Shown one piece after another: positions 3,258 through 19,066 of a DNA stretch of 43,715 nucleotides. Source of the stretch: Candidatus Altimarinota bacterium (lineage in GTDB: Bacteria; Patescibacteriota; Gracilibacteria; BD1-5; UBA6164); the NCBI GenBank assembly GCA_028692735.1, contig JAQUWS010000007.1, positions 1-43,715 of the forward strand. The letters are read 5' to 3'. The notes beneath the pieces were generated by a model. The model ran no database searches. It had not been told where the DNA came from and was given only the letters and a program-made list of their open reading frames with translations. How positions within the stretch are numbered: the stretch's first letter is position 1; the number at the start of each line of letters is the position of its first letter. The position numbers and the translations under genes are program-made.

Positions 3258-3668
3258 ATGAGTTTTAACCATTCAGAAGCAAATAAATATTTGCAAGATT
3301 ATAGATGAATAAAGTCCGTTGATGAACTTATAAAAGATAAGGATAAAAATAATATTCATCATGGTCTTGAGCAATCTAATTGATGAAATTCTCATCCTTT
3401 AAATTTATTATGATCAGATATAAAACTTCATGATTCTTATAATTGTGTTTTTATAAATCTAAATATTCGTGAAAAAATTATATTTTTACTTGATATGCAT
3501 TGAAAATGAGTATGTCAAGAATTTAGAAATAAAGTATTATGAGTTTTAAATGAAACAGATCCTAATTATTACTTTAAAAAAGAAGTAATATGAGATGAAA
3601 ACATGGCAAAATGCACTTTAGAAAGAATTAATGTTCAAAGAAAGAAAATAATGCATATAGTTGATTAA
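3258..3668 (+). CDS. Hypothetical protein at the end of the late block
   Basis: 136 residues starting MSFNHSEANKYLQDYRGIKS. It is rich in His, Asn and charged residues and has no membrane segment. It is not recognised. A terminator lies just upstream and converging - strand genes lie downstream, so it probably has its own transcript. UGA is used at about eight Gly positions. The ATG context AAATT-ATG matches other genes here. Confidence 0.6.
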
Positions 3669-3781
3669 AATTGATTGTTTTTGATGCTCTATAAGTTCTC
3701 GTTATAGTTCTATAGCAAAACAATTTTAAAACTAAAAAAAAAGCCTTTTTGTAAGCTATTTTTTTTAAATAATTAAATTTT
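3669..3781. other. Convergent intergenic region with hairpin
   Basis: No gene was found. CTATAA (3689-3694) pairs with TTATAG (3702-3707) around a 7-base loop, and a bidirectional terminator follows at 3734-3766. The hairpin resembles a tRNA anticodon arm only in size; no T-arm or acceptor stem is present. Confidence 0.5.
3734..3766. terminator. Bidirectional terminator between converging transcripts
   Basis: An A-run (3734-3742) plus GC faces GC plus a T-run (3759-3766) around a loop at 3746-3754. Read from either strand, the stem is followed by a run of T, as expected where the + lysis block meets the - early block. Confidence 0.55.
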
Positions 3782-5197: not shown

Positions 5198-5268
5198 AAT
5201 TATTTATAATTATAAAAATATAATACGAGAGTTTTAATGTCTTTTCTTTGACTAAAATATAATTTTAA

Positions 5269-5308
5269 TAATGTAGATCCTATTATTCAATAAATAGTTT
5301 TTAAACTT
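5269..5308 (-). promoter_or_regulatory. Leader element shared by two early transcripts (copy 1)
   Basis: This 40-base leader segment, just downstream of the promoter at 5329-5356, matches 35 of 40 bases of a segment at 10794-10833 in the same position relative to another promoter. Both contain a CTATT/AATAG stem of five pairs with a variable loop, followed by ATCTACATTA. A conserved 5' untranslated regulatory or stabilising element is inferred. Confidence 0.5.
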
Positions 5309-5328
5309 TATTATTAATTTACGAATTT

Positions 5329-5356
5329 ATTATATTATTTTTTTTTTATTTGTAAA
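5329..5356 (-). promoter_or_regulatory. Early promoter A (ssDNA-binding protein unit)
   Basis: -35 TTTACA (5356-5351), a 16-base A-rich spacer, -10 TATAAT (5334-5329). The same layout recurs at five more sites on this strand and two on the other. Confidence 0.75.
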
Positions 5357-8505: not shown

Positions 8506-8533
8506 ATTATACTAATTTTTTTCTGTTTGTAAA
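8506..8533 (-). promoter_or_regulatory. Early promoter B (nucleotide metabolism unit)
   Basis: -35 TTTACA (8533-8528), 16-base spacer, -10 TATAAT (8511-8506). The leader to the zinc-ribbon start is about 35 bases. It drives the zinc ribbon, dut, broken small gene, diphosphohydrolase, thyA, dCMP deaminase and DHFR. Confidence 0.75.
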
Positions 8534-10763: not shown

Positions 10764-10793
10764 ATAGTTTTTTTATGAAATAATTTTTGTATT

Positions 10794-10833
10794 TAATGTA
10801 GATTCTATTTTTAAATTAATAGATTTTAAACTT
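10794..10833 (-). promoter_or_regulatory. Leader element shared by two early transcripts (copy 2)
   Basis: It matches 35 of 40 bases of the segment at 5269-5308, with the CTATT/AATAG stem conserved. It lies just downstream of promoter C. Confidence 0.5.
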
Positions 10834-10850
10834 GATTAACTTACAAAATA

Positions 10851-10878
10851 ATTATATTCTTTTTTTTCATTTTGTAAA
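10851..10878 (-). promoter_or_regulatory. Early promoter C
   Basis: -35 TTTACA (10878-10873), 16-base spacer, -10 TATAAT (10856-10851). The spacer is base-for-base identical to that of promoter F (18069-18096). Confidence 0.75.
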
Positions 10879-13055: not shown

Positions 13056-15446
13056 TTATTCATCTTTATTATATTTATTAGATAATATATTAATACTATT
13101 TTCAATAAATCAATTTCAGTTTTCATAAATATCACTTTCAAAACATCAACAATTAGATGAATCTGTTTTTTTAATTATGAAATATCAATGTTTTGTTTTT
13201 CATCTTATAGAAACCTTTTTTGCTTCAACATGATGAGGTAGATTAATATTAAAATATTCAATTGAGTATTTTTTATCGAACATATATCAATCCTCTCAAA
13301 TTTCTCTTCTATACATTTCTAGTGTACTATTTCTTTCTCTTATACTAATTCTAGTAATATTCGGAAAGTTTTCATCAAGCCATGTAATATATTTGTCTAC
13401 ATAACTTTCAGATTTATCTGTTAGCAACATTTTATCTTCATTTTCTAATGCTGTTATACAATCCCAATTAATAACTTCTGGAAATTCTTTATAAAGCCAT
13501 GCTAGATAATTCTGAACATTTTCAACATTAGATATTATTTCATTTATTTCTCTTCATCTTTGAAGTTCTATTCAATTTCAAGTTTTTATAATTGTGAATC
13601 TTCTGTTTCATGAACTTCAAGAATCTAATTGCAATGGCTTTTGGTGATTAGATGAAAGAATAAACCATGCTATATTATCGACTTCTCTAGGTTGTATACC
13701 TTTCATATTGATCATGATTCTAGGTTCAAATATTAGACTTTTCAATCTTTCTAATATTTTTGTTGCATCTTTATGATTTCATCATCATAATTCATTGATC
13801 TCAACTATTATTTTATTTCAAGTATATGGACAAAAATCAGAAGTCAGAAATTGAGTTCAAAGTCCACACATTACATTTTCTTGTGCAAATATTTTGCTCA
13901 ATAATTTTATAAAAGTTCATTTTCAAGATCATCAAACTCATTTGAAAAGAACTGCTGGAACTAATACATCATTAATATGAGTATATTTATATAAAATTGC
14001 TTTGTGGATCCATTCAATATTTTCTTTTTTATTTCAGCATAAATTTTCAATTAAAAATTTTATATCTTCATGAATTTCAGATTTATTTGATGCTTCTAAA
14101 ATTACTCTTTCGTCTAAAATATTATAATGTTCTTTTTTTCATCATTTCAAATAACAAACATCATAAAATGTTTTTATTTCTCAGATTTCTTTTAATTCTT
14201 TTAATTCTTTAGAATCAATTCACATCCAATCACAAACAGATTCTTTTTTAACTATTTTATTTTCGTAAATATCATAATACTCATAATTTTTTCTAAGATA
14301 AATAAAAGGATTTTTATTTCACATTGTTTGCAAAACTTTTGCTTCTTTACTATCATAATCTCATCTTCAATCATCATCTTGTTTTATTAAAGTTGCATTT
14401 TGAATCATTCTACTAAAATCTTCAAATCAAAATCAAGCTTCATAAAATTCGTTTATGTCTTTATATTTTTCTCAATTTATATTATTTCTGTCAATATATT
14501 TTATATAAGACATTTCTCTTTTACAAAATTCAGCTAATCTTTGAGCTCAAGTTTTTCATGGTCCATCATTATCATAAGCAACAACAACAGAATCAACTCA
14601 TTTAACTAATTCTTTTATTATTTCTTTACAAGAAGCAACTCAACCAAGATTTCAAATAACATTTTTAAAACCCATCATTCTCATACAAATATAATCTGGC
14701 TCTCATTCAACAATTATAATTTGTTTTGTTTGTTTAATGAAATTCAATGAAGGAAAAATAACTCAACTGCTTGATCATGAAATATTTATAGATTTTGAAT
14801 CTTTACTAGATTCATCTTCTGGAAGATTATTTATTTTTCTCATTTTAGCTCATATAATTTTTCAATTTTGGTCTAATGCTGGAAAAATTAAAACAGGTTT
14901 TGATGGAAGCCATTCTTTTCAATTTTTATCTTTTGTTCTAGTTGCTGGATTTTCACAAAATCAAATTTGATAAAATGTTTCTTTTATTCTTTCAAATCAT
15001 TCTTCTGAATTTAGAAAATCAAGAGAAAATCATCTATTTACTAACCAACTTTTTATAGCTCAAAGGTGTTGTTGTGAAAAATTTTCTCTTATTAAATAAT
15101 TTCAAATATTTTCTAATATTTCTTTTTTTGAAGTATTTTTTTTTGGTTTTTCTAAATTACTTTTTATATTAAAATTTTCTTCAAACCATTCAAAAACTTT
15201 TCTATCATCAGAAGTGTTTAAATATTCTTTCATAAACATAAACGGAGATCAAGATGGTCTTGTTGCTCAATTTGCAAAAACAGCATTTTTCAAAGTGTTT
15301 AATTTATAACTTCAGTTTGAAATTCTGTTTTCTCATGGAACTTGAATTTTATATTCATTTGTAATAGAATCTTTTTTTGTTTGAATTCATAATTTAGAAA
15401 ACAAATCTAAAAATGGTATGTCATTAATTTTAGCTAGATTATCCAT
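13056..15446 (-). CDS. DNA primase-helicase (TOPRIM plus SF3-like helicase)
   Basis: 796 residues in one frame. A TOPRIM domain lies at about 240-300 (IIIVEGEPDYICMRMMGF with the metal-binding Glu; AYDNDGPGKTGAQ with the DxD). The C-terminal helicase has Walker A GVGGSGKGTF near residue 505, Walker B-like IIVEINELGGG, and WFILSSNHQKPLQLD with the sensor Asn, as in D5/P4-type SF3 helicases. It would unwind and prime phage DNA. No polymerase gene accompanies it. The transcript has a long structured leader (15479-15588). Confidence 0.88.
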
Positions 15447-15478: not shown

Positions 15479-15588
15479 AATATATAATAAAAAATAGCCT
15501 TTGAGTATATACAATAATTATTGTATGTGTTAGGCGACAAAACCAAACTCAAAGGCTATTTTTTATTATATATTACTGGTTTTGTCGC
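15479..15588. repeat. Interlocked inverted repeats in the primase leader
   Basis: Arm A (15479-15506) and A' (15547-15574) are a perfect 28-bp inverted repeat. Arm B (15534-15545, GCGACAAAACCA) and B' (15577-15588) are a perfect 12-bp inverted repeat. The order A-B-A'-B' means both stems cannot form as simple hairpins. An 18-bp perfect palindrome (15509-15526) lies between A and B. On the - strand the A stem ends in T6, like a terminator, while B/B' could compete. An attenuator, pseudoknot or replication/recombination element is possible. Confidence 0.75.
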
Positions 15589-15593
15589 AAATT

Positions 15594-15621
15594 ATTGTAT
15601 TCTTTTTTAATTGAATGTAAA
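15594..15621 (-). promoter_or_regulatory. Early promoter E (primase unit)
   Basis: -35 TTTACA (15621-15616), 16-base spacer, -10 TACAAT (15599-15594), one base off the consensus of the other early promoters. Transcription would start just before the interlocked repeats. Confidence 0.65.
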
Positions 15622-15623
15622 AT

Positions 15624-17039
15624 TTATTTTATTAATTTTTTACAGATATTTTTTACATCTTTATCAACTGCAATAAATTCAGGTTTTAGTTTTTGTACTA
15701 TTTGGATTCATTCGTAACTTGTAGCTCTACTTAAGGCAACATACACAATATGATTTTGTGGTTTTTTCTTCCATTCATTTCACTCCTTGTAAGACACAAG
15801 CCCAATATCAACTATAATGTTATCAAATGTTTTTCACTGACTTTTGTGTCAAGTAAGAGCCCAACCTAGTTGAAAAGGAAATTGAATATAATTTCAAATA
15901 ATTTGATGTTCAAGAATATCTTCTCAATCTTCATCTTGTCAAACAATCAATGTTTCATATTTGTTCCATGTTTCTTTTATGATCTTAAGTGGAATAGTTT
16001 TTCAATCAAGTAATACTTCAACACAATCTAATTCTTTATTATTCAAATAATCATGAATTGTAGAAATATTTATAATTGTTCACATTGTTCAATTTTTGAA
16101 CATGTCTGTATTTTTATTAAAAATAATTCTAGATCAAACCGCATATTTAATTTCAAGTGGTGATGGCTCTTTTGTAATATTTCAATAATTATCTTTATCC
16201 CAATTAAAATATGTTGCTGTACTTGTATATATTTGTTGTCAATCAGCTTTTAATTGTGCAAGTTTTAAAGTATTATATTTGTCAACTTTAGAATTAGTAT
16301 TTGCTATATAAATAGCTTTATCATAATTTATATCTTTTTGTTCTTTGAAATTCTTATTAAAATAGGAACATACGGCATTCAAATTTTCTCATAACATCAA
16401 ATTCTTTAAATATGTTTGCAATTTAATATCTGTTGTTCTGTGTGTCTTTTTTAGCTCTATGATCTTAAAATAATTTGTATCAAAAGATATTGCATCAAAA
16501 AAGAATATTGATTTGTATACATCATCATATTTTTTATGATAATGTTCTTCGTATTCATCTTTTGTTTGTTGTGTTACAACTGGAGAAGCTTGAAATAGAT
16601 GACCAACAAATATAATTTGTTTTCATCAAAATAATTTATTATGTACTCAAGTCACTTGTTGAAGTCTTCTATTAATTAAATCAAACTGACTAGCTGAGAT
16701 CATAGATGCTTCATCAATTATGTAAGTATCAAAATATTTCATTACATCTTTTTGTTCTTTATTAACTGATCATAACTTTTCTCAAAAAATTCTAAAAAAT
16801 GAATGATAAGTTTCTCAAAATTCATATAATTGAGCAGCTGCTCAAGTAGTAGCAAGCATTTGAACTTTCTTTTGCTTTTTTTCAGATAACTTATTATTTT
16901 CATTTAAAAAATGATTTATAAGAAATGTTTTTCAAGTTCATCAATTACCAGTTAGAAACATTGATATTGAAGTATTTATCATTATTTCTAATGCTTCTTC
17001 TCATATTTCATCTAATTCTATTTTCTTATTATTTGTCAT
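15624..17039 (-). CDS. Pif1/RecD-like SF1 DNA helicase
   Basis: 471 residues. Walker A GNGGTGKT at about 31-38 (four UGA Gly), motif Ia ATTGAAAQ, YHSFFRIFG, Walker B YIIDEASMIS, then VGHLFQASPV where the family usually has GDxxQLPPV (Asp replaced by His), and C-terminal motifs PFQLGWALTGHKSQGKTFD and YVALSRATSYEG. It is a 5'-3' helicase of the RecD/Pif1 (Dda-like) group for replication and recombination. It is the last gene of the promoter F transcript. Confidence 0.88.
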
Positions 17040-18068: not shown

Positions 18069-18096
18069 ATTATATTCTTTTTTTTCATTTTGTAAA
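18069..18096 (-). promoter_or_regulatory. Early promoter F (leftward, helicase unit)
   Basis: -35 TTTACA (18096-18091), 16-base spacer, -10 TATAAT (18074-18069). It is identical to promoter C over its whole length and lies 5 bases from the iteron palindrome. Confidence 0.75.
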
Positions 18097-18411: not shown

Positions 18412-18530
18412 TTTAATAGTTAAGTATTGCTTTATATAACACATAACTTAGTTATTAATTATAAAATATTTCAAAGGTAATAAAAAATAGCCTGTTGTAC
18501 ACATTATTTGTACAAAATGACTATATTTTC
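18412..18530. other. Non-coding spacer between iterons and operator array
   Basis: No gene. One more GGTAATAA (18476-18483) runs into a 16-base match (18478-18493) to arm A of the primase-leader repeat. TTGTACA and TGTACAA form a 7-bp inverted repeat near 18495-18515. Confidence 0.4.
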
Positions 18531-18785
18531 GTTAATTATGTTAACATTGTTAACTTTTTGAAAGATTTTTATAGTTAACTTTGTTAACACTTATTATATT
18601 AACTTTGTTAACATTGTTAATCTTTTTTAGTTAACTTAGTTAACTTTTTGTAGTTAACAATATTAACTATGTTAACTTTTTAAATATTAACTTTGTTAAC
18701 TTTGTTAATTAAAAAAATAATAAAAAAGTTTACTTTGTTAACAAAGTTAATATAATAAATATACTTTAATATTAACAAAGTTAAC
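18531..18785 (+). promoter_or_regulatory. Operator array of about 20 GTTAAC-like half-sites on a 9-bp pitch
   Basis: Half-sites GTTAAC, or ATTAAC/GTTAAT variants, start at 18531/18540/18549, 18574/18583, 18598/18607/18616, 18630/18639, 18653/18662/18671, 18686/18695/18704, 18737/18746 and 18771/18780. Twelve are perfect GTTAAC. Within every cluster the spacing is exactly 9 bp. The array ends at the start codon of a ribbon-helix-helix protein, the class of regulator that binds tandem short sites, so it is probably its operator. Confidence 0.75.
18729..18756 (+). promoter_or_regulatory. Rightward promoter for the RHH regulator
   Basis: -35 TTTACT (18729-18734), exactly 16 bases, -10 TATAAT (18751-18756). 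Half-sites 18737 and 18746 fill the spacer, and 18771/18780 lie just after the start point, so bound protein should block its own promoter. Confidence 0.7.
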
Positions 18786-18787
18786 AA

Positions 18788-19066
18788 ATGTGAAAACATA
18801 TAAATATATCTGATGATGAAACACTTAAAAAAATAGATCAATTAAAATCATTTCATAATATATTTCAAACTACTAAATTAATTAAATTTTTAGTTGATAA
18901 AGATATAGATAATATTTCTAATACGGTAGAATCTAATATAAAAGAAACCGATGAAGACGAATATAATGAGCAAGATGATGAAAATGAAAATGAAGACAAC
19001 AACAGCAATCAAAGAAAAAGTAAAAAGAAAATAAAAGTATGGGATTGTGAGGATGCCTTTAAATAA
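18788..19066 (+). CDS. Ribbon-helix-helix DNA-binding regulator
   Basis: 92 residues. The N-terminus GKHINISDDETLKKIDQLKS followed by FHNIFQTTKLIKFLVDKDID fits the RHH fold (short beta strand, helix, turn, helix) of Arc/MetJ/ParR-type regulators. The middle is highly acidic and probably disordered (DEDEYNEQDDENENEDNN), then a basic patch and the end KVWDCEDAFK. It lies immediately after the GTTAAC operator array, so autoregulation is inferred. A partition-like role is an alternative, but no ParM/ParA partner is present. Confidence 0.75.

Follow-up and report, generated by a model that had tools for sequence, protein, structure and literature searches.

Interleaved inverted repeats upstream of a phage primase gene as a possible pseudoknotted transcription attenuator

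Replication-leader attenuators and the primase leader

The P4 replication operon encodes primase/helicase. In the immunity system of satellite phage P4 (CI RNA, seqA/seqC), the replication genes are repressed because transcription ends prematurely within a leader that is untranslated and has complementary segments, and the processed RNA pairs with two copies of one complement (PMC4825925). In the rep leaders of pT181 and pIP501, a pre-emptor pairs with a terminator arm, and a countertranscript triggers termination (PMC5703833). A further arrangement is that of IsrK of prophage Gifsy-1, where a read-through mRNA is activated in trans by the short form of the RNA, leading to AntQ production (PMC4825925).

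The element described here, two interleaved inverted repeats (A/A′ and B/B′) directly upstream of a phage primase gene, resembles phage and plasmid replication-leader attenuators in its apparent logic, an analogy short of proven family membership. As in P4, premature termination would occur in a leader with complementary segments ahead of replication genes; unlike P4, the element has two different interleaved perfect pairs and a putative U-tract terminator, shows no sequence match, and holds no segment complementary to two leader sites. A search of Rfam gave no family at the gathering score, P4-type RNAs included, and returned only miRNA-hairpin models and weak, low-scoring sRNA matches. The likeness to pT181 and pIP501 lies in a putative terminator just upstream of a replication gene, with 32 nt between the end of A and the primase ATG, and in an upstream leader segment able to alter that terminator. 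In contrast to those leaders, no base belongs to both A and B, the sole partner of B is B′, and any exclusion would be topological; no pre-emptor pairing with the 5′ arm of the terminator was found. As for IsrK, one promoter could give rise to two RNAs, one short and terminated, the other a longer mRNA made by read-through, whereas trans activation leading to AntQ is a feature of IsrK of which the element gives no sign. Across the defining features that were tested, the element departs from the known systems, having no antisense promoter, shared arm or sequence family.

Genomic setting, promoter and repeat geometry

The element lies on contig C55 of a 1.53-Mb MAG, and the whole contig, 43,715 bp, constitutes the window analysed here. 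In ORF calling, its genes were open only with TGA read as glycine (code 25); code-25 phages of Gracilibacteria-type hosts are known (PMC10746230), and one relative contig originates from a Candidatus Gracilibacteria MAG. The window encodes a phage, with terminase, portal (Pfam, in a scan of ten window proteins), tape-measure-like and other late genes on the plus strand and replication genes on the minus strand. Upstream of the element and in the same operon direction is a PIF1/RecD-like helicase (code-25 ORF, 15624 to 17039, minus strand; Pfam PIF1, E = 1.4e-23), and downstream is a primase with TOPRIM and DUF5906 domains (code-25 ORF, 13056 to 15446, minus strand; Pfam). The 177-nt gap between the two genes holds a promoter and the repeats, so ordered in the minus direction that the promoter is followed by B′, A′, B, a palindrome, A with its U6 tract, and the primase gene. 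Elsewhere, between the divergent early (minus) and late (plus) operons, eleven GTTAAC-containing repeats occupy 18525 to 18790 and mark a candidate origin or control region.

The initial annotation had assigned the repeats to the promoter-driven leader of primase, a position that holds. The promoter scan returned a sigma-70-type match, TTTACA-N16-TACAAT, at 15594 to 15621 on the minus strand, a member of a recurring phage set: TTTACA-N16-TATAAT was found by a window scan on the same strand at 5329-5356, 8506-8533, 10851-10878 and 18069-18096. This promoter type is conserved before an SSB-like gene in a relative (L054, position 3299), and in G472 a similar sequence precedes a host gene that by eye is YvcK-like; because it recurs in the phage, in a relative and before that host gene, it is probably the host's housekeeping type. 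Transcription would start at B′, whose first base lies 6 nt past the −10 box and is the predicted 5′ end of the RNA. From A to the start of primase, the promoter scan returned nothing promoter-like, so that primase mRNA from either upstream source should read through A. No antisense promoter was found inside the leader, the sole plus-strand promoter-like match (15652 to 15679) lying outside it. Leader-peptide attenuation was considered and rejected; a TTG-started frame enters the primase start, without a clear ribosome site and with a length unremarkable in AT-rich DNA.

Several of the recurring promoters carry a dyad, TTTACAAAAT...ATTTTGTAAG, around the −35 box and the start site, which suggests an operator. 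On the minus strand, the leaders of the promoters ending at 5356 (that of the SSB-like gene) and 10878 share a stretch just past the start (5257-5328 and 10790-10850), approximately GTTTAAAA-CTATT-ATT...AATAG-ATCTACATTA, possibly a shared regulatory leader.

The arms of A/A′ (15479-15506 and 15547-15574) are 28 nt long, 100% complementary and separated by 40 nt, and those of B/B′ (15534-15545 and 15577-15588) are 12 nt long, likewise 100% complementary and separated by 31 nt. A perfect 18-bp palindrome, ATACAATAATTATTGTAT, lies within the A loop at 15509 to 15526. Read along the minus strand, the RNA would begin with B′ (GCGACAAAACCA) and continue into A′, the last 12 nt of which, UAGCCUUUGAGU, would make up the core of the terminator on its 5′ side. 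B (TGGTTTTGTCGC) follows within the loop of the A stem, and A itself, which reads ACUCAAAGGCUA, U6 (15494 to 15489) and then AUUAUAUAUU, would supply the 3′ side. The perfect 28-bp and 12-bp interleaved repeats with an 18-bp palindrome between them had been noted in the initial annotation, and their coordinates proved exact.

These repeats are not a product of chance, since 60 second-order Markov simulations of the window, searched for perfect inverted repeats with loops of up to 80 nt, contained nothing comparable. The longest simulated repeat was 15 bp, versus 28 bp for A; an interleaved pair with both stems of at least 9 bp and at least 3 GC occurred in none of the 60, nor did a repeat of at least 12 bp with at least 6 GC. 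Within the window each arm has one perfect complement only, and no second interleaved pair was found in the window, the relatives' contigs or 283 kb of host contigs. It is solely the perfection of the arms and their improbability that argue for pairing, and the arrangement may also reflect misassembly at this site.

A terminator-like stem and a predicted pseudoknot

The A stem had been described as ending in U6 like a terminator. The tract (15489 to 15494) lies inside the 28-bp stem, paired with A6, directly after a 12-bp GC-bearing top (5 GC), and in this it provides the stem and U tract of an intrinsic terminator. The A hairpin had a folding energy of −38.1 kcal/mol (z = −10.6), and a 131-nt minus-strand fold had a z of −8.45. 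A survey of 283 kb of the same MAG for stems whose left arm contains an A-run and whose right arm contains a T-run placed 19 of 25 in intergenic DNA, though this makes up 10% of the sequence. Like A, these host bidirectional terminators are A-run/T-run stems symmetric on both strands, measure 10 to 31 bp and often extend past the A/T run, which explains the pairing of A beyond U6. Unlike them, A has a loop of 40 nt, versus 1 to 9 nt in the intergenic host examples, carries B and the palindrome in that loop, and is placed between a promoter and the gene start that follows; a standard terminator scan with 3- to 8-nt loops gave no match. What survives of the earlier description is the form, which matches host intergenic terminators and from which we infer a host-type intrinsic terminator, while the loop length counts against it. 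Elsewhere in the window, a weak A-run/T-run hairpin at 3731 to 3768, between the convergent late and early operons, has a base resembling that of A and is likely a bidirectional terminator.

In stepwise folding of the nascent RNA, a B hairpin of −17.6 kcal/mol had formed once some 56 nt were made, and only near nt 96, within the U tract, was it overtaken by the nested A stem. A rough Dirks-Pierce-style estimate, which uses a single penalty term (9.6 kcal/mol, a literature value) and no steric term, gave −38.8 kcal/mol for a pseudoknot; the most stable nested fold of the same length reached −21.4 kcal/mol. The predicted structure is of the H type, with interleaved helices and sterically possible loops: a 13-bp B helix (one G-U) is combined with the 12-bp A top, L1 spans 17 nt, and L3 spans 27 nt and contains the palindrome as a 7-bp RNA hairpin. 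In this model B and the upper 12 to 16 bp of A can coexist. A pseudoknot with all 28 A pairs was ruled out, 1 to 2 nt being unable to span that helix. Of the two folds earlier proposed for B/B′, pseudoknotted or competing with A, the former is feasible with the A top; simple competition between A and B was too strong a claim, because an intact B helix excludes only the outer 10 to 12 bp or so of full A.

We propose, as a plausible reading if somewhat short of a probable one, that the element is a lineage-specific insert made up of a host-type promoter and a leader RNA of ~100 nt with a pseudoknotted intrinsic terminator, which gates primase. RNA polymerase would start at B′, and B′ would pair with B once the latter had been transcribed. 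As A emerged, its first ~12 nt would bind A′, which lies in the B hairpin's loop, producing a pseudoknotted terminator at U6. The majority of transcripts would end there as a structured RNA of ~100 nt, and those that read through would serve as primase mRNA. The element would in this way uncouple primase from helicase and set or time the primase level, the trigger probably being a factor that alters whether the A top forms. An attenuator controlling primase, as suggested in the initial annotation, is thus retained on the strength of the promoter, the leader position, the terminator-like A and the possible pseudoknot, and shorn of simple A-B competition. Against it stand the two relatives L047 and L063 described below, which manage without the element, and again the 40-nt loop; moreover, strong termination ahead of primase would, if unregulated, be detrimental to the phage.

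We consider it unlikely, on present sequence evidence, that pseudoknot formation itself is the gate, such that the transcript's very 5′ end base-pairs within the loop of a long terminator of the host type and folding order decides between terminated RNA and primase mRNA; such gating would work by topological exclusion and not by shared bases. If true, phages of code-25 candidate-phyla bacteria would possess an attenuator architecture that is new. Should the element work as the attenuator proposed above, the order of RNA folding would determine primase dosage in a phage reading UGA as glycine, through an interleaved arrangement unlike textbook attenuators. How phages of recoded candidate-phyla bacteria regulate their genes has hardly been studied, and the element is compact enough for in vitro work.

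Relatives and alternative explanations

Two phages share both the helicase (68% identity) and the primase (65-66%) of the window, namely G483:C45 (L047) and IMG/VR 3300002026_000074 (L063). Between helicase and primase they have just 16 and 48 nt, respectively, with neither promoter nor repeat; with the element absent from both carriers of the same gene pair, the comparison offers no conserved pairing with covariation of the kind that marks a riboswitch. The element was either gained in the window's lineage or lost in both relatives, and the compact gene spacing in both favors gain. Single-sequence primase or helicase queries of IMG/VR found no relatives, two- and three-row alignment queries found one (L063), and searches of class genomes by primase and helicase found G483 and distant ones; no homologous leader was present in the relatives found by either route. 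DNA similarity searches of phages, plasmids and family genomes returned only AT-rich scraps and one host promoter. An exact-arm pattern gave two matches in IMG/VR that we attribute to chance: one lies in GC-rich DNA, and the other is a nested, unrelated hairpin. The element has so far been seen in one genome, and its function is a proposed one. In G482 (L050, at about 3630 to 3740), a DUF5906-type gene of distant relationship is immediately preceded by two tandem terminator-like hairpins of 13 and 16 bp, not interleaved.

Absence from the relatives would also suit a free-standing small RNA gene, a self-contained unit of promoter, ~100-nt RNA and terminator whose product acts in trans while primase is expressed by read-through. 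IsrK offers a prophage example of a short RNA paired with a read-through mRNA (PMC4825925), but no Rfam family was matched, and the immediate proximity of the element to the primase gene, in a stretch lacking any further promoter-like site, favors a role in cis; we regard a small RNA gene as doubtful. The same absence weighs against a replication or recombination site acting at the DNA level, as raised in the initial annotation, where extruded hairpins or paired half-sites would be bound by primase, helicase or a recombinase: the phages that share the helicase and primase do without the element, and no positive evidence for such a site emerged. Its location between two replication genes would fit this explanation, as would the DNA switches formed by overlapping repeats in the pMV158 oriT (PMC5863519) and the outer 10 bp of A beyond the U tract, which RNA termination would not need. 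Host terminators, however, likewise pair beyond the A/T run, and the window has a separate repeat-rich candidate origin or control region (11 GTTAAC at 18540 to 18780), leaving a DNA-level site improbable.

A small insert of mobile or accidental origin (MITE-like or produced by template switching), functional only in carrying a promoter and a terminator, is very unlikely. Presence in one of three phages agrees with it, and the perfect arms suggest youth, but the A-arm pattern found no second copy in the window, the host or 353 class genomes, no clear target-site repeat was seen by eye, and one simple inverted duplication is unable to yield the interleaved order. An integron attC site was also considered, as GTTAGGC adjoins B, and was rejected, no partner core being found by eye.

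The phages compared here differ in their use of the recoded codon: L063 has few in-frame TGA codons, 8 in its primase gene versus 54 in the window, which suggests that recoded TGA is used differently among close phages.
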